From Chromatiales bacterium (GTDB taxonomy: Bacteria; Pseudomonadota; Gammaproteobacteria; Steroidobacterales; GCA-2729495), in contig CP070671.1 in the NCBI GenBank assembly GCA_020351875.1, positions 2,667,766 through 2,731,765 of the forward strand: DNA of 64,000 bases, read 5' to 3'. Shown here one piece after another: positions 32,660 to 63,505 of the stretch; within the stretch, counting starts at the first letter, position 1, and each line of letters starts with the position of its first letter. Under the pieces are notes generated by a model. That model saw only the letters and a program-made list of their open reading frames with translations, did not search any database and was not told the origin of the DNA. A program made the translations under genes and the position numbers.

Positions 32660-32665
32660 GCGCGC

Positions 32666-32772
32666 GCCTTTCAGGCAATAAATCCACACATGTGCCGTCA
32701 CATTCGGCTGGGTGCCCAGGCTTTGCCAGGGTTGCCGCTTGGGGCACATGGAGGCTCAACCCAGGAGAGACC
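32666..32772 (+). promoter_or_regulatory. Probable S2 autoregulatory mRNA leader (t44-like)
   Basis: The transcript leader is about 107 nt and can fold on itself. CTGGGT (32708-32713) is complementary to ACCCAG (32759-32764), which includes part of the ribosome binding site, and GTGCCC (32712-32717) is complementary to GGGCAC (32742-32747). Gammaproteobacterial rpsB genes carry a structured leader (Rfam t44) through which S2 represses its own mRNA. The base pairing is seen; the regulatory role is inferred. Confidence 0.5.
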
Positions 32773-33774
32773 ATGAACGACATCAGCATGCGCCAGATGC
32801 TGGAAGCTGGCGTGCACTTCGGGCATCAGACCCGCTACTGGAACCCCAAGATGGCACCGTTCATCTTCGGGTCCCGTAACAATATTCACATCATCAACCT
32901 GGAGCAGACGCTGCCGCTCTTTGGGTCTGCATGCACGTTCTTACGCAACGTGATTGCCGACGGTGGCAAGGTGCTTTTCGTTGGCACGAAGCGGTCGGCT
33001 CGGGAAGCGGTGCGAACCGAGGCACGGCGTTGCGGTATGCCTTTCGTCAGCCACCGCTGGCTCGGTGGGATGCTGACCAACTTCAAGACCATTCGCCAGT
33101 CGATCAAGCGGCTGGAGAACATCGAGGAGATGGAAGAAAACGGCACCTTCGAACAGCTGACCAAAAAAGAGGTGCTGAACCTGCGGCGCGAGCAGGAGAA
33201 ACTCGAGCGAAGTCTCGGTGGCATCAAGGACATGAAGGCGCTGCCGGATGCGCTGTTCGTCATTGACGTCGGTCACGAGAAGATTGCGGTGCACGAGGCC
33301 CGCGTGCTGGGCATTCCGGTGGTTGGTGTAGTGGATACGAACTGTTCGCCAGAGAAGGTCGACTACGTGATTCCGGGTAACGACGATGCAATGCGGGCCG
33401 CCCAGCTCTATACGAGCGGTGTTGCCGACGCGGTGCTGCAGGGCAAAGAGTCCATTCCTGCCATTCCCGGTGGCGAGGACGAGTTCGTCGAACTGGACGA
33501 AGAGGGCAAGCCCCGCGAGCGCACGGCGAAGCGCGCCCCCGCGCGCAAGACCACGCGCAAGAAGCGGGCCAGCGCGAAGCCGGCTGCCAAGGCGGCTGCC
33601 AAGGCCAAAACAGATAAGGCCCCGGTGGTAGAAGCGTCAAAAGCCGCGGCTGCAGACGCCCCCGCGGAGAGCGACGAGGAAGCAGCCGCACCGGCAGCGG
33701 AGACGGCGGCAGCGCCCGCAGAACCTGCCGCCGAGGCGGCAACGGACAGCAAGGACGACAAAGACGCATCGTGA
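32773..33774 (+). CDS. rpsB: 30S ribosomal protein S2 with long basic/acidic C-terminal tail
   Basis: The protein has 333 residues from the ATG at 32773, placed behind CCAGGAGAG; the frame is open further upstream but that is the leader. Residues 1-250 are a standard S2 ([41 protein letters not shown]). Typical S2 has about 240 residues. Here a tail of about 83 residues follows: first Lys/Arg/Ala-rich (251-285), then Ala/Glu/Pro-rich and acidic (286-333). The tail looks disordered and of low complexity. tsf follows after 24 bp, the usual operon. Confidence 0.97.
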
Positions 33775-33798
33775 GCGCATGAGCGCAGGGACATAGCA

Positions 33799-34674
33799 AT
33801 GGCAATTACAGCAAGTCTGGTTAAAGAACTGCGCGAGCGCTCCGGCGCCGGCATGATGGAGTGCAAGAAGGCGCTGGTGGAAACGGACGGCGATCTGGAC
33901 GCCGCGCAGGAACAGCTGCGGAAAAAGGGCCAGGCCAAAGCCGAGAAAAAGGCCGGGAGGATTGCGGCCGAAGGTCGCATCGAGCTGGCGAGCGCCGCCG
34001 GCCGCGCCGTGCTCGTGGAAGTGAACTGCGAAACGGATTTCGTGGCGAAGGACGAGAACTTTCTGGCGTTCGCGCGGCGGGCCGCGGAACTCGCCCTGCA
34101 GCACGACTGTGACGACGTGGCGGCGCTGATGGCCCAGCAGGTGGACGGGGGTACGCTGGAGGAAGCGCGCCTGGCGCTGGTGGCCAAGATCGGTGAGAAC
34201 ATCAACGTGCGGCGCCTGCATGTGTTGCGCCCGGCCGGTGAGGTGGGTGCCTACCTGCACGGTACCAGGATCGGTGTCGTGGTCGACGTCGACGGGGCCG
34301 ACGAGGGGCTGCGCAAGGACCTCGCCATGCATATCGCGGCGACCAATCCGCGCTGCGTGTCGGCAGACGACCTGCCCGCGGCGGAGGTGGAGAAGGAGCG
34401 GGCGATCCTGGCCGACCAGGCCGCCCAGGAAGGCAAGCCGCCCGAGATAGTTGCAAAAATGGTCGAAGGCCGGCTCAGGAAGTACCTGAACGAAATCACG
34501 TTGCTGGGACAGCCTTTTGTGAAGGATCCCGATATCAGCGTCGGCAAACTGCTTGACCAGCAGGGGGCCAGCGTGCATGCCTATCTGCGGCTTGAAGTCG
34601 GTGAAGGCATTGAAAAGAAGGCCGAGGACTTCGCTGCAGAAGTCCAGGCCCAGGTCGAAGCGTCGGGGGGTTGA
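33799..34674 (+). CDS. tsf: Elongation factor Ts
   Basis: This 291-residue guanine nucleotide exchange factor recycles EF-Tu. The N-terminal UBA-like domain has ELRERSGAGMMECKKAL, and the core has VEVNCETDFVAKDENF and the late LLGQPFVKDP. Length and position after rpsB are as expected. A strong terminator follows. Confidence 0.97.
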   Translation: MAITASLVKELRERSGAGMMECKKALVETDGDLDAAQEQLRKKGQAKAEKKAGRIAAEGRIELASAAGRAVLVEVNCETDFVAKDENFLAFARRAAELALQHDCDDVAALMAQQVDGGTLEEARLALVAKIGENINVRRLHVLRPAGEVGAYLHGTRIGVVVDVDGADEGLRKDLAMHIAATNPRCVSADDLPAAEVEKERAILADQAAQEGKPPEIVAKMVEGRLRKYLNEITLLGQPFVKDPDISVGKLLDQQGASVHAYLRLEVGEGIEKKAEDFAAEVQAQVEASGG

Positions 34675-34720
34675 GAAACAGTTCGCAGGAATCCCTGCCG
34701 ATTGCGTTAGACTGGTAGAA

Positions 34721-34746
34721 AACCCCGCCCCGGCGGGGTTATTTTT
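34721..34746 (+). terminator. Intrinsic terminator of rpsB-tsf
   Basis: AACCCCGCC (34721-34729) and GGCGGGGTT (34732-34740) form a perfect 9-bp GC-rich stem with a minimal loop, directly followed by ATTTTT. It lies 46 bp after the tsf stop and 24 bp before pyrH. Confidence 0.9.
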
Positions 34747-34769
34747 GGGTAACTCGGAGCAGTAGCCGC

Positions 34770-35495
34770 GTGGACAGCCCCCCATTGCCCTATCGTCGGA
34801 TCCTGTTGAAGCTCAGCGGCGAAGCGCTGCTGGGCGGCGAAGACTACGGCATCGACCCGGCCGTGCTGTCGCGCATTGCCGAAGAGGTCAAGCAGGTCCT
34901 GGCCCGGGGCGTGCAGGTCGGTATCGTGATCGGCGGCGGCAATATCTTTCGCGGTGCGGGCCTCGCGCGGGCTGGCATGGACCGCGTGACCGGCGACCAC
35001 ATGGGCATGCTTGCCACGGTGATCAATTCGCTGGCGATGCAGGATGCGATGGAGCGCGTCGGTATTTACGCGCGCGTCATGTCGGCGCTGCAGATCAACG
35101 AAGTCTGTGAAGACTACATCCGCCGGCGGGCCGTCCGTCATCTTGAGAAGGGGCGTGCGGTGGTCTTTGCAGCCGGCACCGGCAACCCGTTCTTCACCAC
35201 GGACACGGCCGCGGCGCTGCGGGCCATCGAGATCAGCGCCGACGTGCTGATCAAGGCGACGAAAGTGGATGGTGTCTACGACGACGATCCTGCGAAGAAT
35301 CCGGCGGCGAAACGTTACGATCTGTTGTCCTTCGACACGGTCATCAGCGACAAGCTGAACGTGATGGATACAACGGCCGTGGTGATGTGCCGGGACAACG
35401 GGCTTCCCATCCGGGTTTTCAATCTCACCGAAGAGGGAGCGCTGCTGCGGCTGGTCGGCGGTGAAGACGTGGGTACGCTGGTGTCCGCCGGCTGA
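34770..35495 (+). CDS. pyrH: UMP kinase
   Basis: The 241-residue bacterial UMP kinase of the amino-acid-kinase fold phosphorylates UMP to UDP. Motifs: [12 protein letters not shown] near the N terminus, [30 protein letters not shown] and [13 protein letters not shown]. It begins with GTG at 34770. It lies behind the rpsB-tsf terminator and 26 bp before frr, the conserved order. Confidence 0.97.
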
Positions 35496-35521
35496 CGCAA
35501 CGGGACGGAGGGCTGGAACAG

Positions 35522-36079
35522 GTGATCGAAGATATCAAGAAAGACGCTGCTCAGCGCATGCGCAAGAGCGTCGAGTCGCTTGGCCACGCAATGCGCAAGT
35601 TGCGCACCGGGCGCGCCCAGCCGAGCCTGTTGGAACACCTGGTCGTGGACTATTACGGATCGGAGGTGCCGCTGACACAGACGGCGAATATCGCCGTGGA
35701 GGACTCCCGGACGCTCACGGTCACCCCCTGGGAGCAGAAGATGATCCCGGTGATTGAGAAAGCCATCATCAACTCGGACCTGGGCCTGACCCCCGCATCG
35801 GCCGGGGTAGTGATTCGGGTGCCGTTGCCGCCGCTGACGGAAGAGCGGCGCAAGGACCTGGCCAAGCTCGTCAAGCAGGAGGCGGAGAACGCGCGCATCG
35901 CCGTGCGAAACATCCGGCGTGATGCGCTGCACGACCTGAAAGAACTGCTCAAGGACAAAGAGATCACGGAAGACGAAGAGCGGCGCGGGCAGCAGTTAAT
36001 GCAGGAAATCACCGATCAGCATGTGGCCGAGATCGACAAGGTATCGGAAGAAAAACAGCAGGAAATCATGAGCTTCTGA
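35522..36079 (+). CDS. frr: Ribosome-recycling factor
   Basis: This 185-residue protein splits post-termination ribosomes together with EF-G. The three-helix bundle ends are recognisable from [12 protein letters not shown], the [12 protein letters not shown] segment and the C-terminal [14 protein letters not shown]. The start is GTG at 35522 with a purine-rich GGAACAG upstream. Confidence 0.97.
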
Positions 36080-36100
36080 AAGTTTTATCAATTACTTTCT

Positions 36101-36853
36101 ATGTCTAAATCAGCCGCAAAACCGAATGGCCAGACGCCCCGGCACATCGCCATCATCATGGACGGCAACGGCCGCTGGGCCGCAGCACACGGGCGGGCGC
36201 GGCACGCGGGCCATCGCGCGGGCGTGAAAGCAGCGCGAGCCGTGGTCGAGGCGTCGATCGAGGCGGGCGTCGACGTGCTGACGTTGTTCGCTTTCAGCAG
36301 CGAGAACTGGAGCCGCCCGACGGACGAGGTGAACGGCCTCATGCGCCTGTTCATCGAGGTGCTCCAGCGCGAGATGGACGCGTTGCACGACAACGGTATT
36401 CGTTTGCGTTTCGTCGGGGCGCGGGACCAGTTGCCGACGATTCTGCAAAAACGCATGGCCGACGCAGAAGCCCGAACGGCGGGCAATTCGCGCCTCACGC
36501 TGGTCGTGGCCATTGCGTATGGCGGCCGTTGGGACGTGTTGCAGGCCATGCGCCGCATTGCGGCCAAGATCGAGGCCGGTGAACTCAACGCGGGCGAGCT
36601 GGACGAGGGAGTCATCGCTCGCCACCTGTCCCTTGCGGGCTTGCCGGCCCCTGATCTGTTGATTCGGACCGGCGGGGAATACCGGGTCAGCAATTTCCTG
36701 CTGTGGGACCTGGCCTATACCGAGGTTTTCTTCTGTCCCACGCTCTGGCCAGATTTCGACCTGGCGCAACTGCAGGCGGCGCTGGCATTCTTCGCCCGCC
36801 GCCAGCGGCGCTTCGGCCGCACCGCCGAGCAGCTGGAAGTCATCGCCGATTGA
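36101..36853 (+). CDS. uppS: Undecaprenyl diphosphate synthase
   Basis: This 250-residue cis-prenyltransferase builds the C55 lipid carrier for peptidoglycan and O-antigen from farnesyl and isopentenyl diphosphate. It has HIAIIMDGNGRWA with the catalytic Asp21, FAFSSENWSRP and the C-terminal LLIRTGGEYRVSNFLLW. It lies 21 bp after frr. Its isoprenoid substrate comes from a pathway whose usual neighbouring genes (dxr, ispD, ispF) are not in this window. Confidence 0.96.
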   Translation: MSKSAAKPNGQTPRHIAIIMDGNGRWAAAHGRARHAGHRAGVKAARAVVEASIEAGVDVLTLFAFSSENWSRPTDEVNGLMRLFIEVLQREMDALHDNGIRLRFVGARDQLPTILQKRMADAEARTAGNSRLTLVVAIAYGGRWDVLQAMRRIAAKIEAGELNAGELDEGVIARHLSLAGLPAPDLLIRTGGEYRVSNFLLWDLAYTEVFFCPTLWPDFDLAQLQAALAFFARRQRRFGRTAEQLEVIAD

Positions 36854-36908
36854 CGACCGGTATGCGCAACCCGGTGCTCTTCGCGCTCAGCATGGAACCC
36901 GGCGCCCG

Positions 36909-37721
36909 ATGAAAAGGCTCCTGACTCGCGTCGTGACCGCCCTGGTGCTGGTGATCATTCTCTTGGTCGTCTTCTTTCGCTTGCCGCCGGCGGCTGCGGC
37001 GGGGCTGCTGACCGTGTTTACGGTGGCAGCGGCCTGGGAATGGGGTGGCTTCGTGAGTGCGAACGCGACGCCCTGGCGGATCGGATTCGCCGTCACAGTC
37101 GCGTTAATTATCGGCCTCCTCGGGCTGGCTAATCCGGAAAAAATACCCGTGATGCCAATACTTTATGCGGCATTGCTTTGGTGGTGTCTGGCTTTGGTGC
37201 TGGTGCTGCGTTTCCCGGTCAGCCTGCCGACGGCCTGGCGCCTGCCCTGCGGCCTGCTGGTCCTGGTGCCGGCCTGGGTGGCGATGCTGACTGTGCTGCG
37301 CAGCCCGTCAGGTGGCCCGGAACTGCTGCTGCTGGCACTGGCCGTCGTGTGGGCGGCAGACGTCGGCGCCTATTTCACCGGGCGGCAGTTCGGTCGCACG
37401 CGCCTGGCGCCTCGAGTGAGCCCGGGCAAGACCTGGGAAGGGGTCGGGGGCGGACTGGTCGCCACGGCACTGGTCGCCACAGCCGGCGCTGCGCTGCTGC
37501 AATTGCCCGCACCCGGGCTGGTGCTGATTTCCGTCGCGGCCGCGGCAATTTCCATCATCGGCGACCTCACCGTCAGTATCTTCAAGCGCACGGTGGGCCT
37601 GAAGGACAGCGGCAGCCTGTTCCCCGGGCATGGTGGTGTGCTGGACCGGATCGACAGCCTGACCGCTGCGATGCCGCTATTCGTGGTCTGCGCGGTCTGG
37701 CTCGGGTATTTGCAGCTGTGA
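36909..37721 (+). CDS. cdsA: Phosphatidate cytidylyltransferase
   Basis: The 270-residue inner-membrane enzyme makes CDP-diacylglycerol for phospholipid synthesis. It has about eight transmembrane helices and the C-terminal signature from SPGKTWEG through IGDLTVSIFKR to KDSGSLFPGHGGVLDRIDS. It follows uppS by 55 bp. rseP comes next; no dxr lies between them. Confidence 0.95.
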   Translation: MKRLLTRVVTALVLVIILLVVFFRLPPAAAAGLLTVFTVAAAWEWGGFVSANATPWRIGFAVTVALIIGLLGLANPEKIPVMPILYAALLWWCLALVLVLRFPVSLPTAWRLPCGLLVLVPAWVAMLTVLRSPSGGPELLLLALAVVWAADVGAYFTGRQFGRTRLAPRVSPGKTWEGVGGGLVATALVATAGAALLQLPAPGLVLISVAAAAISIIGDLTVSIFKRTVGLKDSGSLFPGHGGVLDRIDSLTAAMPLFVVCAVWLGYLQL

Positions 37722-37845
37722 GTGGACAAGTGTTGCAACCGGGGACCGCGGGTTGCGATCATCCGCAGTTGAGACACCGCACCCTGGGGTGCCACACAGG
37801 GCCGCCCGGCCGCGGCGCGCTTCCAACGGGTTTTTGCCAACACTG

Positions 37846-39213
37846 ATGTCCGGTTTCCTGACTTCCCTGCTGTCTTTTCTCGTGGCGATCGCGGTGCTGG
37901 TGGCCGTCCACGAGTGGGGGCATTACATCGTCGCGCGACTGGCCGGTGTGAAGGTACTGCGCTTTTCCATTGGTTTCGGCAAACCCTTGTGGCTGCGACG
38001 CGGGGGACCGGATCAGACCGAGTATTGCCTGTCGGCCATTCCGATCGGCGGTTACGTCCGGCTGCTCGACGAGCGTGACGGCACCGTCGGCGAAGCCGAG
38101 CGCGACCGGGCTTTCAACCGCCAGTCCGTGCCCGCGCGCGTGGCGATTCTGTTTGCCGGCCCCGGAATGAATTTTCTGTTTGCGATCCTGGCTTACTGGG
38201 TCATGTTCGGTCTCGGGGTGCCGGGACTGAAACCGGTCATCGGCGAAGTCGAGCCACGATCGATCGCCGCTACCGCCGGTATCCGGGCGGAAGACGTCAT
38301 CGTCTCCGTAGGCGATCGACCGGTGGCAACGTGGGAAGGCACCGTGATCGCGATGCTGGATGACATGCTCGCTAATGGCGACATTCGGATGCGTGTGGAG
38401 GGTGCTGACGGTGGGCAGCGGGGCGTGCGCCTGGCAACCGGTGGTCGCGAGGCCGAGCTGACTGAACCCGGACAGCTGTACAAGGTGATCGGGCTCGAAC
38501 CTTGGCGCCCCACGCTCGATCCGGTGATCGATGAAGTTACCCCGGGCGGAACCGCAGAGAGTTCGGGGCTGTTGTCCGGCGATCTCATCCTGTCGGCGGA
38601 AGGCGAGGCCTTCGCGGACTGGAGTGCGTGGGTTGAATTCGTGAAGGCCCGCCCCGGTCAGGTGGTCGATGTGACCCTCCGCCGGGACGGGAGCATCCTG
38701 GAGTTGCCGCTGGAGATCGGTGTGCTGGAAGCCGACGGTGAGCGGATCGGGAGAATCGGCGCGGGCCCCCGGGTGCCGGATGATCTTTACGAAGGCCGGC
38801 GTGCCCTGCAGCGTTACGGGTTTTTCGAAGGTGCCGCAGCGGCCGTGACGAAGACCTGGGACATGTCCGCGCTGACGGTACGCATGATCCTGCGCATGAT
38901 CACCGGTGATGTGTCCGTGAAGAACATCAGCGGCCCCATCAACATCGCGCAGTTTGCCGGCTACAGCGTCAGCGGTGGTCTGACAACTTTCCTGGGCTTT
39001 CTCGCGATCGTCAGCGTAAGCCTCGGGATATTGAATTTGCTGCCGGTGCCCATGCTCGACGGTGGCCAGATTCTCTATCAACTGGCAGAAGCGGTGAAGG
39101 GGAGTCCATTGTCGGAGCAAACCCAGGTGATCGGTCAGCAGGTCGGCATCCTGTTCCTGTTGATCCTGATGAGCTTCGCGTTCTACAACGACCTGTCGCG
39201 CCTGTTCGGCTGA
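37846..39213 (+). CDS. rseP: Site-2 protease RseP
   Basis: The protein has 455 residues from the ATG at 37846. This inner-membrane zinc metalloprotease cuts RseA within the membrane in the sigma-E envelope stress response. HEWGH (His22-His26) is the zinc site, two periplasmic PDZ domains fill the middle, and the C-terminal LLPVPMLDGGQ completes the active site. The open frame runs upstream to 37753 but that part has no family counterpart. It precedes bamA by 5 bp. Confidence 0.95.
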   Translation: MSGFLTSLLSFLVAIAVLVAVHEWGHYIVARLAGVKVLRFSIGFGKPLWLRRGGPDQTEYCLSAIPIGGYVRLLDERDGTVGEAERDRAFNRQSVPARVAILFAGPGMNFLFAILAYWVMFGLGVPGLKPVIGEVEPRSIAATAGIRAEDVIVSVGDRPVATWEGTVIAMLDDMLANGDIRMRVEGADGGQRGVRLATGGREAELTEPGQLYKVIGLEPWRPTLDPVIDEVTPGGTAESSGLLSGDLILSAEGEAFADWSAWVEFVKARPGQVVDVTLRRDGSILELPLEIGVLEADGERIGRIGAGPRVPDDLYEGRRALQRYGFFEGAAAAVTKTWDMSALTVRMILRMITGDVSVKNISGPINIAQFAGYSVSGGLTTFLGFLAIVSVSLGILNLLPVPMLDGGQILYQLAEAVKGSPLSEQTQVIGQQVGILFLLILMSFAFYNDLSRLFG

Positions 39214-39218
39214 TATTC

Positions 39219-41633
39219 ATGGCTGGTTTTATTTGCCACCGGTGCACACGGTCAGTCGGTCATACCTCGGTGATCGCGTTGTTGCTGTTACTGGCCGCGC
39301 TGCCTGCGCTGGCGCAGCAGCCGGACGCGCTTGTCGTGCGCGACATTCGTGTTGAGGGTCTGCAGCGCATTTCCGAGGGCACGGTATTCAATTACCTGCC
39401 CGTCAACATCGGTGACACGCTCGATGCGCAGCGGGTGCAGGAAGCCTTGCGCGCGGTCTATCGAACGGAGTTTTTCCGGGACGTGGAGCTGCGCTGGGAC
39501 AGGGGCACCCTGATCATCGCCGTGGCCGAGCGGCCGTCCATCGAGTCGCTGACCATCACCGGCAACAAGGACATCAAAACCGAAGACCTCCAAGACCCGC
39601 TGGCCAAAATCGGCCTGAAGACCGGCCGCATCTTCAATCGATCGGTGCTGGAGGAAGTCGAGCAGTCCCTGACCGACCAGTACTTCAGCCAGGGCAAGTA
39701 TGGCGCCAGCGTGAAGGCAGAGGTCGAGAACCTTGCCGACAACAAGGTGGCGATCGAGATCAAGGTCAAAGAGGGCGATCGCGCCCGTATCCGGCAGATC
39801 AACGTGGTGGGCAATACCAGCTACGACGACGAGAAGTTGCTGGACAAGTTTGCACTGCGAACCCCGAACCTGTTGTCGATGATTCGCCAGGACGATCGTT
39901 ATTCGCGCGAGGCCTTGTCCGGCGACCTGGAAACCTTGCGTTCTTTCTATATGGACCGGGGTTTCGCGGACTTTCGGATCGATTCCACGCAAGTCGCGAT
40001 TTCGCCGGACAAGAAAGATATCTTCATCACCGTCAACATCACCGAGGGCGATCGCTACATCGTCGATGACGTGCGCCTGGCCGGCGAACTCATCCTGCCC
40101 GAGGAGAGCCTGAACCCCTACGTCGCCATCAAGCCCGGCCAGACCTATTCGCAGCGGCTGATCGCCCAGAGTGCTGACCTGATCCGCCTGCGCCTCGGCG
40201 AAGAGGGCTATGCCTTCGCGTCGGTGGAGCCGGTGCCCGAACTCGACCGTGAGGCCAAGACCGTTGGCGTGACCCTGTACGTAGAACCCCAGAATCGGGT
40301 GTACGTCCGGCGAGTGGTCTTCAACGGTGCCGACTCCACGAACGACGAAGTCTTCCGTCGCGAGATGCGCCAATTCGAGGGCGCGTACCTGTCCAACAGC
40401 AAGCTCGAACGCTCGCGGGTCCGGTTGCAGCGTCTGCCGTACGTGGAGGAGGTCAGCGTCGAGAACGTACCCGTCCCGGGCACGCCGGACGTCGTGGACG
40501 TGGAGTTCGACATCAAGGAAGGCCTGCCTGGGCAGTTTGGTGGCGGACTAGGCTTTTCCGAGTCCCAGGGCGTGGTGCTGAACGGCAACTTCGTGCACAC
40601 GAATTTCCTCGGCACGGGCAACCGGATTTCGGCGGACATCAACACCGGCCGTTACCGGACCGTCTACAGCCTGGCCCACACGAACCCGTACTGGACGATT
40701 AACGAGGTCAGTCGCACGATTCGCGCGTCCTACCGGGAGATTACGCAGTTCACGTCGGACGCATCGGACTTCAGCACCGAAACCTACTCGCTGGCGATGG
40801 AGTTCGGTTACCCGTTGACGGAATACCAGCGGCTCCTGTTCGGTGTCAGCTTCAACAGCTCGGAGCTGCTGGCCAACACCTTCAGCACCTTCCAGGCACT
40901 GGAATGGGTCACCAACAACGGTGGCTTGTTCCAGGCCGACATCAATACAGTCGGCTCGGAATTCAATACGATCGAACTCACCGGTGGCTGGATCTACGAC
41001 AGCCGCAACCGGGCACTGTTTGCGGACCGGGGCAGTCGTCAGCGCCTGCTCTTCGGTGTGACCAGTCCGGCCGGCAGCGATGTCGATTTCTACACGCTCA
41101 CCTACAACGCCAGGAAATACCTGCCGTTAACACGCTACTTCACGCTGTCGCTGAACGGCGAGGTTTCTTACGGTGACGCGTTCTCGGGCACCACGTCGAT
41201 TCCGCCGTACCGCAGGTTCTTTGCCGGCGGGCCGGATTCCGTGCGTGGCTACCGGGAGAACAGCCTCGGGCCCGTCGATACTTTCGGTAATCCGTATGGC
41301 GGCAACCTGGTGATCACCGGCCAGGCGGAACTGATTCTGCCCCTGCCGCAGGCCTGGTCGTCCAGGGCACGCCTGGCGGCGTTCCTCGATGCGGGTAATG
41401 TTTACGACACCGGTGGTGTGACATTTTTCGAACGCGATGGCGTGACCGAGTTAGAATACGACCTCGACGATTACGGATTGAGGTACTCGGTGGGTCTGGG
41501 CGCGCAGTGGCTCGCGCCGCTGGGTCTCTTCCGCTTCAGTTACGGTATTCCTCTGAATGCCGAAGATGGTGATGATCGGATTTTTGGCGACGAGACGGAG
41601 AAGTTCCAGTTCTCGATCGGCGGAGCTTTCTAG
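39219..41633 (+). CDS. bamA: Outer-membrane protein assembly factor BamA
   Basis: This 804-residue Omp85 protein is the central insertase for outer-membrane barrels. A signal peptide (hydrophobic residues about 18-30, cleavage near ALA-QQ) is followed by five POTRA domains starting at VVRDIRVEGLQRI, then a 16-stranded barrel from about residue 425. The VRGYRENSLG motif of the lid loop is present. Length is normal. It belongs to the conserved rseP-bamA-skp envelope cluster, usually controlled by sigma-E. Confidence 0.97.
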   Translation: MAGFICHRCTRSVGHTSVIALLLLLAALPALAQQPDALVVRDIRVEGLQRISEGTVFNYLPVNIGDTLDAQRVQEALRAVYRTEFFRDVELRWDRGTLIIAVAERPSIESLTITGNKDIKTEDLQDPLAKIGLKTGRIFNRSVLEEVEQSLTDQYFSQGKYGASVKAEVENLADNKVAIEIKVKEGDRARIRQINVVGNTSYDDEKLLDKFALRTPNLLSMIRQDDRYSREALSGDLETLRSFYMDRGFADFRIDSTQVAISPDKKDIFITVNITEGDRYIVDDVRLAGELILPEESLNPYVAIKPGQTYSQRLIAQSADLIRLRLGEEGYAFASVEPVPELDREAKTVGVTLYVEPQNRVYVRRVVFNGADSTNDEVFRREMRQFEGAYLSNSKLERSRVRLQRLPYVEEVSVENVPVPGTPDVVDVEFDIKEGLPGQFGGGLGFSESQGVVLNGNFVHTNFLGTGNRISADINTGRYRTVYSLAHTNPYWTINEVSRTIRASYREITQFTSDASDFSTETYSLAMEFGYPLTEYQRLLFGVSFNSSELLANTFSTFQALEWVTNNGGLFQADINTVGSEFNTIELTGGWIYDSRNRALFADRGSRQRLLFGVTSPAGSDVDFYTLTYNARKYLPLTRYFTLSLNGEVSYGDAFSGTTSIPPYRRFFAGGPDSVRGYRENSLGPVDTFGNPYGGNLVITGQAELILPLPQAWSSRARLAAFLDAGNVYDTGGVTFFERDGVTELEYDLDDYGLRYSVGLGAQWLAPLGLFRFSYGIPLNAEDGDDRIFGDETEKFQFSIGGAF

Positions 41634-41649
41634 GAAATACACGGTGAAA

Positions 41650-42174
41650 ATGAAATTGGGGATTCGTTCGGGTCTTATTCTCGTGACCGCGCTGCTGGCC
41701 ATGCCGGGTGCGGTGCTGGCACAGGACATCAAGATTGGCTTCGTGAACATCGCGCGGTTGATCAGCGAAGCGCCGCAGGCGACCGCGGCCATGGCCGCGT
41801 TGCAGGAGGAATTCGCGCCGCGGCAACGTGAACTCGTGTCGATGCAGACCAGCTTCCAGGAACGCCAGGAGCAGTTGCAGCGCGACCTGGAAGTCATGGG
41901 GCCCGATGAGCGGCAGAACGCCGAGCGCGACCTGCGCAAGGAAGAGCGACAGCTCGCACGCAGCCTGGAAGAACTCAACGAAGACGCCAACCTGCGGCGT
42001 AACGAAGAGTTGGCGAAACTGCAGCGGGAGATTCTTCGCGAGGTTGCAACCTATGCCAGGGAAGCGGGTTACGACCTGGTGCTGGGCGAAGGCGTGTTCT
42101 ACGCGAGCTCTGCCGTAGACATCACGTCGGATGTGCTGACCCGGTTGCAGAACCAGTCGGGCAGCGCCGAGTAG
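41650..42174 (+). CDS. skp: Periplasmic chaperone Skp/OmpH
   Basis: The protein has 174 residues from the ATG at 41650; a GTG at 41644 is also possible. A signal peptide ends at VLA-QD. The mature part starts with the family strand IKIGFVNIARL, then a long charged coiled-coil arm (about residues 50-120) and a C-terminal strand segment YDLVLGEGVFYAS. Skp trimers hold unfolded outer-membrane proteins for BamA. In most relatives lpxD follows; here rnhB is next. Confidence 0.92.
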   Translation: MKLGIRSGLILVTALLAMPGAVLAQDIKIGFVNIARLISEAPQATAAMAALQEEFAPRQRELVSMQTSFQERQEQLQRDLEVMGPDERQNAERDLRKEERQLARSLEELNEDANLRRNEELAKLQREILREVATYAREAGYDLVLGEGVFYASSAVDITSDVLTRLQNQSGSAE

Positions 42175-42341
42175 TTTCACCACCGTTCCGCGCTGCAAGC
42201 CTTGGCGGCACCGGAACCAGGCGCGACGCGGCAAGACTCGGCCACCGGCGGGGAACCGGCACCGGCCTATAATCGCCGGATGGGGAAGAACAGGCGGTTG
42301 CCGACCAGCATGTCGTACCGGCACGCCCGGGGGGTAGCGGG

Positions 42342-42944
42342 GTGAACACGTTGTTGCCCGGTGTCGGGGGCGTGGACGAAGTCGGGCGCGGACCGCTCGC
42401 AGGGCCGGTGGTGGCAGCGGTCGTCGTGCTGGCACCCGGCCAGACCATCGCCGGCGTACGCGATTCCAAGCTGCTGACGCCCAGGCGCCGCGAGGCCCTC
42501 GCGGCAATCATTCGCGCCGAGGCGGCAGGCTGGGCAATTGCCCGCTGCAGTCCAGCCGAGATCGACGAACTGAATATCCTCAACGCATCGCTTCTCGCGA
42601 TGCAGCGCGCTGTCGAGCAGCTCGAGCAGTGTCCCGCACGCCTGCGCATCGACGGGAATCGTGCGCCGGACCTCGGCGACTTTCAGGGCCGGGTAGAAAC
42701 CGTCGTGGGCGGCGATCGCAGTTGTATTGCGATCGGGGCGGCGTCCATCCTCGCCAAAGTCAGTCGCGATGCAGAAATGACCGCGCTGGACGCCCGCTAT
42801 CCCGGTTACGGCTTCGCGCGCCACAAGGGGTACCCGACCTCTGCCCACCGCGACGCCCTTGAGCGACTGGGACCGTGTGACGTCCATCGACGCAGCTTCG
42901 CGCCCGTGCGTGCGGCAGCAGCAAACCCGAGGCCGCACCCGTGA
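42342..42944 (+). CDS. rnhB: Ribonuclease HII
   Basis: The 200-residue enzyme removes single ribonucleotides and RNA from RNA-DNA hybrids. It has the catalytic start [13 protein letters not shown] (Asp12, Glu13), [10 protein letters not shown]-like [13 protein letters not shown], and [11 protein letters not shown]. It begins with GTG at 42342. The stop overlaps the dnaE GTG as GTGA. A TATAAT at 42268-42273 may give it a promoter of its own after the gap behind skp. Confidence 0.95.
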
Positions 42945-45900
42945 GCGCCGGCTTCGTGCATCTGCACCTGCATACCGAGTATTCCATCGGCGACAGCGTG
43001 GTGCGGGTCAAAGATCTCGCCCAGGCGGCCGCAGGCACCGGGATGCCGGCCGTGGCGATGACCGATCGCGCGAATCTTTTCGCGATGGTGAAGTTCTATC
43101 GCTTGGCCATGGCCCGCGGGGTGAAGCCGATCATCGGCGCTGAAGTCCTGGTGCAGGATCCGGAAATCCGGGACGAACCGTCACCGCTGGTCCTGCTTTG
43201 CAAGTCGCAGGACGGCTATCACCTGCTGTCGCGACTGCTCACCCGCGCCTACCTGGAAGGCCAGCAGGGCGGAGTACCGGTTGTCAGCCTCGACTGGCTG
43301 CGCCCGGCCGGTGGGCTGCTGGCCCTGTCCGGCGGGCGGGAAGGGGCCCTTGGTCGCGTGATCCTGACCGGCCGCGACCAGGACGCGCGGGCGCATGTCG
43401 CGCGCATGACCGAGTTGTTCGATGGCGACTACTACCTGGAGCTGCAACGCACCGGCCGACCGGGTGAAGAGCGTTACAACCAGGGTGCCGTGGCCCTGGC
43501 CGTGGCTTTGGGCACACCGGTTGTCGCGACGAACGATGTGCGCTTTCTCCGCCGCGAGGATTTTGCTGCCCATGAAGCGCGTGTGTGCATTCACCAGGGG
43601 CGAATTCTCGGCGATAACAGCCGCCCGCAGGAGTATTCCGCAGAGCAGTACCTGCGCACTGCGGAAGAGATGGCCGAGCTGTTCGCAGACTTGCCGGAAG
43701 CGCTGGAGAATTCCGTAGAAATTGCGCGCCGCTGCAATCTCGTTCTGAATCTCGGTGAGACACACCTGCCGGCCTACGCGGTGCCTGACGGCTACGACGT
43801 GGAAAGTTTCCTGGTCTTCGAGGCCACGCGCGGTGTTGCCCGGCGCCTGAAGCTGAGCGAGAACACGGCACTGGAAGACCTGCCGAAGGTATACCGGGAG
43901 CGCCTGCAGCACGAACTGAAGGTCATTGGCCGCATGGGTTTCCCGGGTTATTTCCTGATTGTGGCTGACTTCATTCACTGGGCGCGCGAGCACGCGATTC
44001 CCGTGGGGCCCGGCCGTGGTTCCGGTGCCGGCTCCCTGGTGGCCTATGGACTGGGGATTACCGACATCGATCCCATCGAGCATGCGCTGCTGTTCGAGCG
44101 TTTCCTGAATCCCGAGCGCGTATCGATGCCGGACTTCGACATCGACTTCTGCATGGAAGGGCGCGATCGGGTGATCGATTACGTGGCCGAACGCTACGGG
44201 CGCGACCGGGTGTCCCAGATCATTACCTACGGCCGCATGGCGGCAAAGGCCGTGGTGCGTGATGCGGGCCGCGTGCTGGGTCACGCCTACGGGTTCGTCG
44301 ACCGCGTGGCGAAACTGATTCCCCACGATCTCGGCATGACGCTGGACAAGGCCCTGGCGTCGGAGCCGGAGCTGAAGCAGCTCTACGGGACGGATGAAGA
44401 GGTTCGCGCCATTCTTGACCTCGCTCGCAGCCTGGAGGGGCTGGTGCGCAACGCCGGCAAGCACGCTGGCGGCGTGGTCATCGCCCCGGCTGACATCACC
44501 ACCTACTCGCCGTTGTACCGGGTGGAAGGCGAAAAAGGCGCGGTCACGCAATTCGACAAGGACGATGTCGAAGCCGCCGGGCTGGTGAAGTTCGATTTTC
44601 TCGGCCTGCGGACACTCACGATCATCGACTGGGCCGTGCGCACCGTGAATGCCGAGCGGGCCCGGCGCAACGAAGCACCGCTGGATATCGCGGCCCTGAC
44701 CCTCGACGATCCCGACGCGTTCCGGCTGTTGCGCGAATGTCGGACGACCGCCGTGTTCCAGCTGGAATCCCGCGGTATGCGGGACCTGATCAAGCGACTG
44801 CAGCCCGATACCTTCGAAGACATCGTGGCCCTGGTCGCGCTGTACCGACCCGGCCCGCTGCAGTCGGGCATGGTGGACGACTTCATCGCCCGCAAACACG
44901 GCGACAGTGACCAGTCCATCGACTACCTGCACCCGGATCTCGAACCGGTGTTGAAAGCGACTTATGGCGTGATCCTGTACCAGGAGCAGGTCATGCAGAT
45001 CGCGCAGGTCCTGGCCGGTTACTCCCTCGGCGAAGCCGACCTGCTGCGGCGCGCGATGGGCAAGAAAAAGCCCGAAGAAATGGCCAAGCAGCGATCGGTG
45101 TTCATGGCCGGCGCCGCCAGGCGCGAGATCCGGTCCGCGACTGCCGGCCGGATCTTCGACCTGATGGAGAAGTTCGCGGGCTACGGCTTCAACAAGTCAC
45201 ACTCTGCCGCCTACGCGGCGTTGTCCTACCAGACGGCCTGGCTGAAGGCGCACTACACCGCGGCGTTCATGGCGGCGGTGCTGACATCTGAACTCGACGA
45301 CACGGACAAGCTGAACGTACTGCGCAGGGACTGCGAGGCCGAGGGGCTGCAGCTGTTGCCGCCGGAAGTGAATGATTCCGCCTACGCGTTCGAGGTGCGG
45401 GGCGACCAGGCGATTCGTTACGGGTTGGGGGCCATCAAGGGGCTCGGGCGCAACGCAGTCGAGTCGATTGTCGCCGCGCGGGCCGACGGCCCGTTCGCGA
45501 GCCTGGACGAGTTTTGCCAGCGTGTCGATGCGCAGCGCATCGGGCGACGAGGGCTGGACGCTCTTGCCAAGGCCGGGGCCCTCGACGCGTTTGGCCCCAA
45601 TCGCCCGTCACTGCTGGCGGCCCTGCCGGCAGCGCTGGCGCGGGCGGAACGCATGGCCCAGGACCGGGATTCCGGCCAGGGCGACATGTTCGGTGACGGC
45701 GGTGCGGCTCCGCAGCCGCCGCCCTCCGTCCCTGCAGTAGAAGACTGGGGCTTTGCCGCGCACCTGGAAGCCGAACGGGAGAGCCTGGGCCTGTACCTCA
45801 GCGGGCACCCGTTCGACCAGTACCGCAGCGACGGCCCCTTCGTTGCGACCGGTACGATCGCGGCCCTGACCAGCGGGCCGCCGCCAAAGAGCAACGGCGA

Positions 45901-46429
45901 GGGCTGGAACGCCGGCCGCGAGGTCTCGCTGGCCGGCCTGGTGACGGGATTGCGCAAGCGCGGCGGGCGCGTGACCTTCGACCTGGACGACGGCCGAGAG
46001 CGGGTAGAAGTCACGCTGTTCCAGGAGGCCTTCGAGCGCTTCCGCCACCTGCTGGTGAGCCACGCCATCGTCGTGATTACCGGCAAGCTGCGCTTTGATG
46101 ACTTTATCGGCGACTGGCGGCTCACCGCGCGCGAGGTCGTCGATATCGACCGGCTGGTCGAAGATCGGGCCTCCGGACTGGTCATCCGCTGGTGCGGCCG
46201 TGAGGGGCGCGCGCTCGATCCCGGCCGACTGCGCGAGACCCTGGATCCTTACCGGCCCGGGCGCTGCGACGTGAGCCTGCACCTGGAACGCGCCGACGCC
46301 CAGGCACGGGTTCGCTTCGGTGACAGTTGGTCTGTGCGTCCCAGCCGCGAGCTGCGCGAGCGGCTGTCGGCCCTGGTGGGTGCCGAGGGCTATCGGTTCC
46401 TGTACGACGCGTCGTCGCCGCCCGTTTGA
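42941..46429 (+). CDS. dnaE: DNA polymerase III subunit alpha
   Basis: This 1162-residue replicative polymerase catalytic subunit is of normal length. An N-terminal PHP domain starts at [11 protein letters not shown]. The polymerase core has the catalytic PDFDIDFCM and [16 protein letters not shown], with the later [16 protein letters not shown] helix-hairpin-helix region, an OB domain ([11 protein letters not shown] onward) and a C-terminal tau-binding part follow. The GTG start overlaps rnhB; accA begins 42 bp downstream. Confidence 0.97.
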
Positions 46430-46471
46430 AGTTGCTTGTCTGACCGCGTTTCTGCGTTTACCGTTCCCGGC

Positions 46472-47431
46472 ATGGAACAGAAGTTTCTGGATTTCGAGCA
46501 ACCGATCGCAGAGCTGGAAGCGAAGATCGACGAATTGCGTTTCGTTGGCGATGACTCCGAGGTCAATATCAACGATGAGATCGAGCGGCTCAAGACCAAG
46601 AGCAAGTCCCTGACCCGCAGCATTTTCGCCGACCTCGATCCCTGGCAGATTGCGCAACTCGCCCGTCACCCGTCGCGGCCCTATGCGCTCGACTACCTGA
46701 AAATCATCAGCCCGGATTTCCAGGAGCTGCACGGCGACCGGATGTATGCCGACGACCCGGCCCTGATCGGCGGGCCGGGGAGGCTCGATGGGCGGCCCGT
46801 GATGTTCATCGGCCACCAGAAGGGCCGGGACACCAAGGAGCGCGTGCACCGGAACTACGGCATGCCGAAGCCCGAGGGCTACCGCAAGGCGCTGCGGCTG
46901 ATGGCAATGGCCGAAAAGTTTCGCCTGCCGGTCATTACGCTGATCGATACGCCAGGTGCCTACCCGGGAGTCGGCGCAGAAGAACGCGGACAAAGTGAAG
47001 CCATCGCCCGCAATCTGTTCCGCATGGCCCAGCTGAACACGCCGATTATCAGTGTGGTGATCGGCGAGGGTGGTTCTGGCGGGGCGCTGGCCATCGGCGT
47101 GGCCGACCGCGTGGTGATGCTCCAGTACAGCGTGTACTCGGTGATTTCGCCGGAAGGTTGCGCCAGCATCCTGTGGAAGAGCGCCGAGCACGCGGCCGAG
47201 GCCGCCGAGGCCATGGGCATCACCGCGCCGCGTTTGCGGGAGCTCAGCCTGGTCGACGAGGTGTTGCCGGAGCCCCTCGGCGGCGCGCATCGTGACCTGG
47301 ACGCCATGGCCCAGACGCTGCAAAACGCGCTGATCACCCACCTGCGCGAACTGGAAGTCCTCGATCCTCCGGAACTGCTGCGTCGCCGGTCCGAGCGCCT
47401 GGCCGGGTTTGGCCGCTTCAAGGAGAACTGA
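46472..47431 (+). CDS. accA: Acetyl-CoA carboxylase carboxyltransferase subunit alpha
   Basis: The protein has 319 residues from the ATG at 46472, identical to the E. coli length and starting in the family manner ([12 protein letters not shown]). An upstream TTG at 46436 would add 12 residues without family support. With AccD it transfers carboxyl from biotin to acetyl-CoA. The crotonase-like core has [19 protein letters not shown] and [15 protein letters not shown]. It follows dnaE in the conserved order. Confidence 0.96.
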
Positions 47432-47450
47432 CCGGCGGTTGGCCCCAGCC

Positions 47451-48773
47451 ATGCAGCCGCTGGCCGACATTCTCACGAACGCACTGGCTCGCGGTGACGC
47501 TGAGCCCACGGGTTTGTGTGTCGCATTCAGCGGTGGTCGCGATTCCAGCGTGCTGCTGCACGCGCTGCATGGTCTGGCGTTGCCGGTGCCGCTGCGCGCG
47601 ATTCATATCGATCATGGCCTGCTCGCCGAATCGGCGGGCTGGGCGGCACACTGCGAGACCGTCTGCCGACAATGGCAGATTCCTATGCAGGTCACCCGCG
47701 TCGACGTGTCATCGGCCGCGGCCGACGGCGGCCTGGAAGCCGCCGCCCGCGATGCGCGTTACGCGGTTTTCCGCGCCGAACTTCGCCCCGGCGAGTTCCT
47801 GCTGACCGCGCACCACAGCGACGACCAGCTGGAGACGGTGTTGCTGCGCCTGATGCGGGGCAGTGGACCAGCCGGGGTCGCCGGTATCCGGCCCTTCGCG
47901 CCGTTCGGACCGGGTTACCTGGTCCGCCCGTTATTGCAGGCAGGCCGCGCACAGCTTGTTGACTACGCGCGGCAGCACGCGTTGAAGTGGGTCGAAGACC
48001 CGTCGAACCGCGACGAGGGTCGCGATCGGAATTTTCTGCGCCACCGCGTGTTGCCATTGCTGCGCGAGCGCTGGCCGGCGGCGCCGGACACGGTCACCCG
48101 CACCGCGCGGTTGGCGGACGAAGCCGTGCACCTGCTGGACGAACTGGCGGAGCTGGACGCCGGCGCGGTGGTTGACGGTGACACGCTGCACCTCGGCCTG
48201 CTGCGCGAACTGAGCGCGCGTCGGCAGCGCAACCTGTTGCGCTGGTTCCTGCATCGGCACGAGGTGCCGCCACCTTCGGCCGCGGCGCTGCATGACGGCC
48301 TGCGTCAGCTCTGCGAGGCCCGGGCTGACTCCGCGCCGCGACTGAGCTGGTCCGCCGGCGAACTGCGCCGCTATCGCGACCGGCTCTACCTGCTGAAATG
48401 CCACCCGGACAGCGAACCGGTGCCGGAGTCGCGACGGTGGGACGGCCAGGCGCCGCTGGAACTCGGTTCACTGGCCGGCCAGCTGGCGCTGCGCCAGGGC
48501 ATCGGCGGTACCCCGGACGTGGGTGGGCAGGCGCTGACCGTGCGCTTTCGGCGCGGCGGGGAACGTTTGCTGCAACACGGCCAGCACGTGAGCCTGAAGA
48601 GCCTGTACCAGTCTGGTGGCATCGTGCCGTGGATGCGCCCGCACGTGCCCCTGGTATTCCACGGCGACGAACTGCTAACGGTCGGGGGCCTGTGGTATGC
48701 GGAAAACCCGCCGGGAAGCGGCGTGGCCACTGGGCTGGAGGTTGCCTGGACACCCCGGGAACGGCTGCGTTAA
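47451..48773 (+). CDS. tilS: tRNA(Ile)-lysidine synthase
   Basis: The protein has 440 residues from the ATG at 47451; TTG 47439 and an earlier frame extension to 47409 are alternatives. It modifies C34 of tRNA-Ile to lysidine so that AUA is read. The PP-loop ATPase motif SGGRDSS (residues 27-33) is intact, followed by HIDHGL and LLTAHHSDDQLET. The C-terminal TilS substrate-binding domains follow (LTVRFRRGGERL). Order accA-tilS-pyrG is Pseudomonas-like. Confidence 0.94.
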   Translation: MQPLADILTNALARGDAEPTGLCVAFSGGRDSSVLLHALHGLALPVPLRAIHIDHGLLAESAGWAAHCETVCRQWQIPMQVTRVDVSSAAADGGLEAAARDARYAVFRAELRPGEFLLTAHHSDDQLETVLLRLMRGSGPAGVAGIRPFAPFGPGYLVRPLLQAGRAQLVDYARQHALKWVEDPSNRDEGRDRNFLRHRVLPLLRERWPAAPDTVTRTARLADEAVHLLDELAELDAGAVVDGDTLHLGLLRELSARRQRNLLRWFLHRHEVPPPSAAALHDGLRQLCEARADSAPRLSWSAGELRRYRDRLYLLKCHPDSEPVPESRRWDGQAPLELGSLAGQLALRQGIGGTPDVGGQALTVRFRRGGERLLQHGQHVSLKSLYQSGGIVPWMRPHVPLVFHGDELLTVGGLWYAENPPGSGVATGLEVAWTPRERLR

Positions 48774-60985: not shown

Positions 60986-61942
60986 TTGCGAGTCCTTGTC
61001 GTTGTGGTTGGCGTGTCGTTGCTCGCCGGGTGCGGCAGCAGCAGTCGATTGCTCGGCGAAGAGCAGGCGCAACAAGGCCTGCCTCGGTCCGTTGAGCTGC
61101 AACGGACACCGTTTTACCCGCAGCAAGACTACCAGTGCGGACCGGCGGCCCTGGCCACGGTGCTGACGGACTCGGGTATCGCAACGTCGCCCCAGGATCT
61201 GGTTGCGCAGGTTTACATTCCAGGGCGTGCCGGCAGCCTGCAGATCGAACTCCTGGCAGCCGCCCGCCGCGCCGGCCGCCTGCCCTACCTGATCGAGCCG
61301 AATCTCGGCGCGCTGCTGGCAGAACTGGCAGCGGGTCGGCCGGTCCTGATACTGCAGAACCTCGGCCTGGGCTTTGCGCCTGTCTGGCACTACGCGGTCG
61401 TCGTCGGATATGACACGGACAGCGGTGAGTTGATCCTTCGCTCGGGCACAACCGAGCGGCGCAGGGTGCCGGCAGCAAAGTTCGCGCGCAGCTGGCGGGC
61501 CAGCGAGCAATGGGGTGTCGTGGTCCTGCGCCCGGGTGAATTGCCGGTGGCGCCGTCGCGGAAGAGATACCTGCAGGCAGTCAACGCCCTGGAGCAAGCG
61601 GGCCATGCCGACGCGGCGCTGGCTGCCTACCTGGCGGCAGCAGAGCGCTGGCCCGATAGTGCCAACGCGTGGTTTGCGCTGGCGAACGCTTACTACGCGG
61701 CGGGTCAGTGGGGTGCCGCCGAGCGTGGTTATCGGACTGCGCTGGAGCGCTCGCCTGACGATGCGGCCGCGTGGAATAACCTTGCGCAGTTGCTACTGAG
61801 TCAGCATCGCTGCACCGACGCGCAAGCCGCGCTCGACCGGGGGCTTGCGGTTGAGGATACCGCGCCGGCCATCAGCTCGGCGCTGGCCAGCAGTGCCGAC
61901 GCCATTGCGAATCGTTGCCCAGGCACGCAGGCCGGGCAATGA
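60986..61942 (+). CDS. PA2778-like C39-family cysteine peptidase with TPR repeats (lipoprotein)
   Basis: The protein has 318 residues from a TTG at 60986. A short lipoprotein signal ends at LAGC (Cys16). The C39-like domain (about 38-185) has the catalytic Cys51 in DYQCGPAAL, His135 in WHYAVVVGYD and a following Asp. Two to three TPR repeats occupy about 190-275 (ANAWFALANAYYAAGQWGAAERG). C39 peptidases usually cut double-glycine leaders inside ABC transporters, but this one stands alone in the periplasm. It resembles the Pseudomonas PA2778 family. The PA2779-like partner lies 18 bp downstream on the opposite strand. Confidence 0.82.
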   Translation: MRVLVVVVGVSLLAGCGSSSRLLGEEQAQQGLPRSVELQRTPFYPQQDYQCGPAALATVLTDSGIATSPQDLVAQVYIPGRAGSLQIELLAAARRAGRLPYLIEPNLGALLAELAAGRPVLILQNLGLGFAPVWHYAVVVGYDTDSGELILRSGTTERRRVPAAKFARSWRASEQWGVVVLRPGELPVAPSRKRYLQAVNALEQAGHADAALAAYLAAAERWPDSANAWFALANAYYAAGQWGAAERGYRTALERSPDDAAAWNNLAQLLLSQHRCTDAQAALDRGLAVEDTAPAISSALASSADAIANRCPGTQAGQ

Positions 61943-61960
61943 CGCTGACTATTGCGAGCC

Positions 61961-62359
61961 CTAGGTCTTGCCCGGACCGATCGTGGGGAATACGTTGGTG
62001 ACGCCCGTCAGGTCCAGGATCAGCAACAGCAGGAACACGAGCAGGACAACCTCCAGCGCGCCTGCACCGGCCGGCAATTCCTGGAATTTCTCGTCGAGTT
62101 GCACGAGTTCCGAATCGCTCAGGGCAGCCACGCGCTGGGTGGCCTGGGCCGGGTCGACACCGAGTTCAGTGAGCCGTGCGCTGATCCGTTCCTGCATCAA
62201 TGCGGCCTGCACGCGCTCGAGCCGTGCCTGCCGGTCTTCGGCAGCCAGGTAGTCGGCGGTGGCAATGAAATTCGCACTCGCGCTGATCGGGTAAGCTAGC
62301 CCCGACAGCATCAGGCAGACGATGGCGACGATCGTGTTTCGACAGAACAGGCGGATCAT
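61961..62359 (-). CDS. PA2779-like membrane protein
   Basis: The protein has 132 residues from the ATG at 62359. A signal peptide (residues about 1-29, cleavage near ASA) is followed by a charged helical stretch (ARLERVQAALMQERISARL). A C-terminal transmembrane helix (about 105-120, VVLLVFLLLLIL) ends in NVFPTIGPGK. It resembles the PA2779 family, usually encoded beside a PA2778-type C39 peptidase. Here the two genes are convergent rather than in line. The helical stretch could be an inhibitor or substrate of the peptidase; this is a guess. Confidence 0.78.
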   Translation of the reverse strand: MIRLFCRNTIVAIVCLMLSGLAYPISASANFIATADYLAAEDRQARLERVQAALMQERISARLTELGVDPAQATQRVAALSDSELVQLDEKFQELPAGAGALEVVLLVFLLLLILDLTGVTNVFPTIGPGKT

Positions 62360-62887: not shown

Positions 62888-62953
62888 GATTGACTCCAGC
62901 AGGGGGCAGACCACTGCAGTCTAACGGGTCGCCAGGTGCAACGGAGGTGAGTG

Positions 62954-63505
62954 ATGGCGAAGAAGGCTCGCCGCAAGAAAATGCGTGGTAAACGCCGGGT
63001 CACGCGCAGGGCAGTGCGCCTGCGAGTGGCTCACGCGCCGAGGCTGGGTGGCTACCTCCGGTCCGTGATCGAGGAAACCTATTTCCTGCGCTTCATCGTG
63101 CTGCTTGGTGGGCTGTGGCTGTTGTTCGCGGCGGCAATATTCCTTGCCGAGCAGGGGGTGGAGGGCGCCCCGATCCAGACCTTCGGCCAGGCGCTGTACT
63201 GGGGCGTTGCGGCGCTGTCGACGGCGGGTATTGCCGACACGCCAGTGTCCGGTGCGGCCCAGGCCATTGGCGCGGCGTGGATCCTGATCGGCTCGGTGCT
63301 GTTCTTCGGCATCATCGTCGCGAGTATCACCGGCTACTTCATGCGCCCGGTGCAGCGGCCGGCCCGCCAGATCATCGACACCATCGAGTACAACCTGGAG
63401 CACCTCGCGGACCTGTCCGTCGATGAGCTGGACCTGCTGAAACGGACCACGGACAACCTGATCCTGCACATGGAGCGGATGAAGCAGCGCGAAGCGGGCA
63501 GCTGA
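62954..63505 (+). CDS. Two-helix channel-like membrane protein with degenerate pore filter
   Basis: The protein has 183 residues from the ATG at 62954, 6 bp behind GGAGG; a GTG at 62951 is possible. The N-terminal 24 residues are strongly basic. A TM-pore-TM unit follows: TM1 about 46-66, pore helix about 78-90, TM2 about 104-128. The filter position reads STAGIAD (89-95) where potassium channels have T-V-G-Y-G-D. A cytoplasmic helical tail (131-183) may be a coiled coil. It looks like an Ion_trans_2 family member, but potassium selectivity is doubtful. Confidence 0.72.
   Translation: MAKKARRKKMRGKRRVTRRAVRLRVAHAPRLGGYLRSVIEETYFLRFIVLLGGLWLLFAAAIFLAEQGVEGAPIQTFGQALYWGVAALSTAGIADTPVSGAAQAIGAAWILIGSVLFFGIIVASITGYFMRPVQRPARQIIDTIEYNLEHLADLSVDELDLLKRTTDNLILHMERMKQREAGS

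Follow-up and report, generated by a model that had tools for sequence, protein, structure and literature searches.

A PA2778-family C39-type peptidase without a transporter and its PA2779-family partner, a candidate membrane-anchored substrate

Leaders removed by the C39 domains of transporters have GG, GS or GA as their last two residues (PMC10986499), and GG or GA is the leader end described for class II microcins (PMC5311971). Members of the Pfam family PF13529 are described as single-domain peptidases (PMC10318531), and in the functional amyloid system of Pseudomonas the C39-type peptidase FapD is periplasmic and works without a transporter; mutation of its Cys abolishes amyloid secretion, and the account of this system leaves the target of FapD open and suspects GG/GA sites in its partners (PMC5557850). 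FapD demonstrates activity of a C39 peptidase in the periplasm and so provides a precedent for the PA2778 family. In the GlyGly-CTERM/rhombosortase system a glycine motif precedes a C-terminal helix, and the genes for the protease and for its single target are described as lying side by side (PMC3237569). A search of 5.39 million papers, a set short of most subscription journals, found no functional or experimental study of the PA2778/PA2779 pair.

The stretch of DNA that we analyzed (64,000 nucleotides; hereafter the window) contains at positions 60986-62359 two intact ORFs lying end to end, where the initial annotation had placed a convergent PA2778/PA2779-like pair, and both proteins exceed curated family cut-offs, so that annotation stands and a chance pair of ORFs can be ruled out. 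The first gene, P0001 (60986..61942, forward strand; 318 aa, TTG start), scores 331.5 bits against NF033920, the PA2778 family of cysteine peptidases (cut-off 150), and 32.3 bits against PF13529 Peptidase_C39_2 (gathering cut-off 24); its score against PF03412 Peptidase_C39, that is C39 proper, is 19.9 bits, below the gathering cut-off of 22. The second, P0002 (61961..62359, reverse strand; 132 aa), scores 112.1 bits against NF033919, the PA2779 family (cut-off 40), and 87.0 bits against PF20332 DUF6627 (cut-off 27). In NCBIfam at E values up to 1, NF033919 was the sole match of P0002, with no leader or GlyGly-CTERM model among the matches. The two stops are 18 bases apart (61943..61960), so the genes converge without overlap, and no terminator-like site was found in the gap. 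Because the TTG start of P0001 lies just 4 bases past the stop of a PNPOx-like gene, itself preceded by a RecJ-like gene, P0001 may be transcribed as part of that unit. (Note that a promoter and terminator scan of the locus returned nothing exceeding shuffled sequences.) The genome from which the window derives has a single copy of the pair and no second PA2779-like protein, the next match reaching only E 0.12.

Roles in defence or in phage biology were considered and set aside: PADLOC gave one TPR-driven PrimPol match for P0001 (E 3.3e-05) and none for P0002, and PHROGs gave weak endolysin matches alone for P0001 (E 0.00075 and 0.0029) and none for P0002. Elsewhere in the window, a small membrane protein that matches ion channel models below threshold is encoded at 62951-63505 on the forward strand.

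P0001 begins with a lipoprotein signal peptide whose lipobox reads LLAG-C16 (60986..61033, forward strand). The lipobox is conserved in homologues, being recognised by pattern in 103 of 113 paired PA2778 proteins (the pattern failed in 10), and the residue following the lipid Cys was never Asp in the 103 recognised. Under the E. coli rule, a non-Asp residue at that position directs a lipoprotein to the outer membrane. The peptidase had been annotated initially as periplasmic; it does appear to face the periplasm, but as a lipoprotein it is probably tethered to a membrane and not free. The C39-type site consists of Gln46 (oxyanion), Cys51 (61136..61138), the presumed nucleophile, and His135 (61388..61390), the presumed catalytic base, all on the forward strand, and thus provides the Cys, His and Gln expected of such a site. 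Both the Cys and the His motif are kept in 113/113 uninterrupted paired homologues; in the alignment the His column is H in 98 of 105 rows, the remaining 7 being inactive homologues, and the oxyanion Gln is present in 93 of 104 aligned PA2778 rows. Where an Asp would be expected as the third catalytic residue, most PA2778 rows read [RH]SG, and a mostly conserved Asp lies 8 residues after the His.

The remainder of P0001 is a TPR region (approximately 61554..61890, forward strand, residues about 190-300), recognised by Pfam TPR models and modelled as helices with pLDDT of about 66-96. No ABC transporter is fused to this 318-aa protein, the TPRs being the sole added region, and thus the absence of a transporter reported in the initial annotation holds. 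The surprise expressed there is lessened by the FapD precedent and the PF13529 single-domain peptidases as described in the accounts cited above. The TPR half of the P0001 model resembles the peptide-binding TPRs of CHIP, SycD and PcrH (Z 17-18), a likeness that counts for little since repeats match easily. (Note that this two-sequence model is poor over the C39 half, with block pLDDT of about 32-66, and TPRs fill the list of similar folds.)

To compare the distribution of the two families, the same 397 genomes of a phylum sample were searched with both models. PA2779, which like PA2778 has no name beyond a locus tag or DUF number, is common in this sample: it occurred in 46/397 genomes, and all 46 also had PA2778. 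PA2778 was found in 54/397 (E 1e-20); the 8 genomes with PA2778 and no PA2779 comprise seven truncated homologues, all from one genus, and one distant match of 77.5 bits. Among 147 genomes of the order, PA2779 occurred in 44 and PA2778 in 46, and 44/44 genomes with PA2779 had PA2778; of the two extra PA2778 genes, that of G473 has an internal stop and no PA2779, and that of G397 reaches a contig end. The initial annotation had reasoned that families occurring independently of each other would speak against a functional pair; such independence was not found save for a few exceptions, namely the inactive PA2778 homologues described below and G659, which has an orphan PA2779 and no active PA2778 seen, one of two PA2778 matches in this genome having been read. 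In the order sample, G540 has a PA2779 without an adjacent PA2778 and a pair elsewhere in the genome. Dropped from the counts were genes with an internal stop (L078, L166) or at contig ends (L167, L140), the distant 77.5-bit match (L168), duplicates (L193, L209, L217), a second ORF at L153 that encodes a separate TPR protein, and L162, with a frameshifted PA2779. Five weak PA2779 matches below the cut-off (G574, G575, G615, G635 and G695) were taken as chance because both of those that were read cross a stop into another frame, one that resembles the start of a sensor kinase.

Across 107 loci the pair has no conserved third neighbour, and no transporter is among its conserved neighbours; the next neighbour cluster spans 12 genera and consists of generic signalling genes. 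Two loci are of separate interest. At L078 (G112 contig 9, 4054-5055) PA2778 is split by an in-frame TAG, next to an intact PA2779 and with a second pair in the genome, and on G739 contig 25 three PA2779-like genes cluster in a stretch of about 16 kb (32073-48347).

The truncated homologues belong to genus g14, presumably Pseudomonas. Of 199 g14 genomes, 192 had a PA2778-family match, which was full length in 23, and exactly those 23 carried an adjacent PA2779 (the 24th g14 genome with a PA2779 is G659, with its orphan alone). Among the matches listed, the other g14 genes align to no more than roughly the first 185 positions of the model, and about 169/199 genomes, again among the matches listed, hold a similarly truncated form. 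We read 20 of the truncated homologues (L109-L115, L190-L192, L194-L196, L208 and L211-L216): 20/20 had lost the Cys and His motifs together with the TPRs, and no PA2779 lay in the stretch read. (In L109 the His pattern matched an unrelated stretch; the aligned column is Gln.) In the peptidase tree these 20 form a single clade nested within the active homologues (99/99*), so they record one loss event and not twenty. The inactive gene of G214 occupies the same chromosomal place as the active pair of G167, with thrS and an FAD oxidoreductase gene as neighbours (names assigned by eye), but PA2779 is gone; seven inactive loci yielded no convincing PA2779 remnant (best E 0.024). Since G630 carries an active pair and an inactive homologue together, the inactive form is not simply waste, and the wide retention of this TPR-less clade suggests, by analogy with C39-like domains, a non-catalytic role.

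P0002 is predicted to carry a Sec signal peptide (approximately residues 1-29, 62273..62359, reverse strand) cut after ASA, an AxA position conserved in the family. Its C-terminal part contains a hydrophobic helix (approximately residues 101-121, 61997..62059, reverse strand), assigned from hydropathy and from a conserved acid, D116 in P0002, which is acidic in 95/96 rows. Just before the helix lies a leader-like segment running from R76 to A99 and ending P96-A97-G98-A99 (62063..62134, reverse strand), delineated from family conservation and a low-confidence model. In an alignment of 116 PA2779 rows, 112 of them different, the dipeptide at positions 159-160 is GG in 54, GA in 50, GS in 6, GE in 3, AG in 2 and GQ in 1; thus GG, GA or GS directly precedes the membrane helix in 110/116, the window having GA. 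G occupies position 159 of the P-A-G motif in 114/116 rows and G, A or S position 160 in 112/116, the following residue is variable, and mean hydropathy past the candidate site is 2.49. The segment upstream has L or M at 141 in 116/116, T or S at 142 in 106/116, E at 145 in 111/116, and hydrophobic residues at 146, 149 and 153. Mean pairwise identity is highest over the segment that ends in the site (0.47), lower over the helix and tail (0.42) and lowest over the N-domain (0.32). In a two-sequence model of low confidence (mean pLDDT 65), the LPAGAG stretch takes a coil conformation, with a helical bundle before it and the last helix after it. From these features we propose a cut by PA2778 after A99, or after G98.

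The spacing L-[ST]-x-x-E-L-x-x-L of the PA2779 segment is that of the double-glycine leader consensus, but its glycines lie 8 residues further from ELxxL, and ELxxL is also a common helix-capping pattern. Because of this offset and the commonness of the cap, we do not claim homology of the segment to double-glycine leaders. (The exact consensus string did not occur in the 12 papers listed by a literature search.)

PA2779 genes also occur away from the peptidase. Eight of the 23 active g14 genomes carry an additional PA2779-like gene at a distance from the pair; G659 has such a gene too, and these nine orphans form one clade (100/99*); in the five loci read, they adjoin trpS- or scpA-like genes (names assigned by eye). 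Identity between the orphans and the paired g14 PA2779 proteins is 0.42 over the leader-like segment, 0.35 over the N-domain and 0.23 over the helix. That the segment is best kept is what would be expected if the peptidase reads it; G659, where the orphan is kept without a visible active peptidase, is a counter-case. In the orphans (L197-L205) the leader-like site is retained, the helix is different and the tail is absent.

Beyond the family memberships, the tight co-occurrence, the retention of catalytic residues with the partner and the conserved C39-like site before the helix, we infer cleavage, its exact place, help from the TPRs and which of the products matters. We consider it somewhat better than an even chance that Sec exports PA2779 and that PA2778 then cuts it, as its substrate, next to the membrane. 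After export by Sec, the helical domain of PA2779 would lie in the periplasm with its C-terminal helix in the inner membrane; PA2778, as a lipoprotein facing the periplasm, would grip the juxtamembrane helical segment, possibly via its TPRs, and would cut after PAG[GA], so that the periplasmic domain is freed from a hydrophobic C-terminal peptide. A part for the TPRs is suggested by their loss together with PA2779 and, weakly, by the resemblance of the model to TPRs that bind peptides. Some findings sit poorly with a substrate: in 6/116 PA2779 rows the site reads GE, AG or GQ; going by the position next to its lipid Cys, PA2778 would be an outer-membrane lipoprotein, whereas PA2779 would sit in the inner membrane; P0001 falls short of the C39-proper cut-off, with an ambiguous third catalytic residue; the ELxxL module is offset from the glycines, and P0002 matches no NCBIfam leader model; G659 and G540 keep a PA2779 apart from any PA2778; and the support from co-loss is one event, the 20 homologues being one clade. 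The candidate cut site, the presumed catalytic residue and the clade inactivated by nature make the pair easy to test.

The initial annotation had offered substrate, anchor or inhibitor as roles for the small protein. The GG, GA or GS before the helix favors the substrate; anchor and inhibitor belong to an alternative that we regard as possible but rather unlikely, in which PA2779 is devoted to the control of PA2778 (as inhibitor, chaperone or membrane anchor), its PAG[GA] loop occupies the active site uncut, and the real substrates are other proteins. Such control would fit the co-occurrence and the co-loss equally well, and would suit both the single partner gene found in most genomes and the resemblance of the TPR model to peptide-binding TPRs. 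It would account less readily for orphan paralogues that, far from the pair, keep the site and not the helix, for the small residue (G, A or S) almost always found at position 160, or for the transcript level of the PA2779 gene in one species: in P. stutzeri DSM4166 it is reported as one of 39 genes whose transcripts rank in the top 3% in each of four samples (PMC10155442). Such high levels are more natural for a substrate than for an inhibitor. Thus, while the distribution of the families fits all of these readings, transcript abundance and site composition lead us to prefer a substrate over an inhibitor or adaptor.

Less probable again is a stable PA2778/PA2779 complex acting on a third, unlinked protein in envelope assembly or surface-protein maturation, with PA2779 recruiting the peptidase to the inner membrane. 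The good conservation of the PA2779 helix and tail, with their near-invariant acid, suggests more than an anchor, and the target of FapD is likewise an envelope component and not settled; against this, the 107 loci show no conserved third neighbour, although an unlinked target would be invisible to a test of neighbours. A further possibility, which we think similarly improbable, makes the freed peptide the active product. PA2779 would be a double-glycine-type precursor exported via Sec, with its periplasmic half as an oversized leader; PA2778 would release a hydrophobic peptide some 30 residues long, which has the conserved acid and a GxTxxF-like tail and would act either in the membrane or on neighbours, and in one clade the peptidase would have become an inactive stand-alone protein after the substrate was lost.

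Among 93 pairs located, 91 are tandem with PA2779 upstream and 2 are convergent, namely those of the window and of G476. The 30 loci closest to the window PA2779 comprise 26 tandem pairs, these same 2 convergent pairs and 2 without PA2778 in a short flank. For P. aeruginosa, a divergent orientation of PA2779 and PA2780 has been reported (PMC3985676), which fits PA2779 reading toward PA2778. The convergent pairs of the window and G476 are sisters in the peptidase tree (99/94*), and the tandem pair of G484, a relative of the same genus, lies elsewhere on that tree. The PA2779 of the window belongs to a subtype with the tail FPxIGPG that was found in 3/396 order genomes (G000, which is the genome of the window, G476 and G540); these three members form one clade (100/99*) in a PA2779 tree that includes only about half of the L169-L189 rows. 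Because the three carriers come from three families of the order, the subtype was likely spread by transfer or is an old paralogy. A wider contig search for it returned only CP070833.1, which matches the G476 pair. (In G540 the gene of this rare subtype, at L165 2581-3222, has no adjacent peptidase, and the tandem pair lies elsewhere.) The convergent layout is therefore a local oddity, and the initial suggestion that it allows antisense or opposed expression does not extend to the family: regulation of the pair by opposed transcripts or antisense RNA, to which the 18-base gap free of terminator-like sites would lend itself, is highly improbable when both convergent pairs are sisters and the same-genus pair is tandem.

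How, then, does the locus compare with the systems described? Both window proteins pass the cut-offs of the PA2778 and PA2779 families, which are neighbours nearly everywhere sampled, but the usual arrangement is tandem with PA2779 upstream, whereas in the window the genes converge and PA2778 follows a PNPOx-like gene by 4 bases. In common with C39 ABC transporters and their double-glycine substrates, the pair has the Cys/His/Gln site, the GG/GA/GS dipeptide at the candidate cut and a preceding helical segment; it differs in lacking a transporter, in a proposed cut that would take place in the periplasm, ahead of a membrane helix, and in its sub-threshold PF03412 score. Catalytically dead C39-like domains (CLDs) of HlyB-type transporters are described as having lost the Cys in a retained domain (PMC8277102), and so have the truncated PA2778 homologues, but CLDs are transporter parts and the truncated homologues are stand-alone lipoproteins. 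The nearest precedent for the layout is GlyGly-CTERM/rhombosortase as described, which shares the glycine motif, the C-terminal helix and the adjacent genes; rhombosortase, however, is an intramembrane serine protease, its motif and the basic tail differ from PA2779, and P0002 has no GlyGly-CTERM match. FapD, according to its published description, resembles PA2778 as a Sec-exported C39-type peptidase without a transporter, but it sits in a multigene amyloid operon, whereas PA2778 has one partner gene and TPRs, and the 18 NCBIfam matches of P0001 include no FapD-type model. Should cleavage of PA2779 prove true, the pair would join FapD as the second periplasmic C39 system to work without a transporter, and its peptidase would be devoted to one substrate anchored in the membrane.
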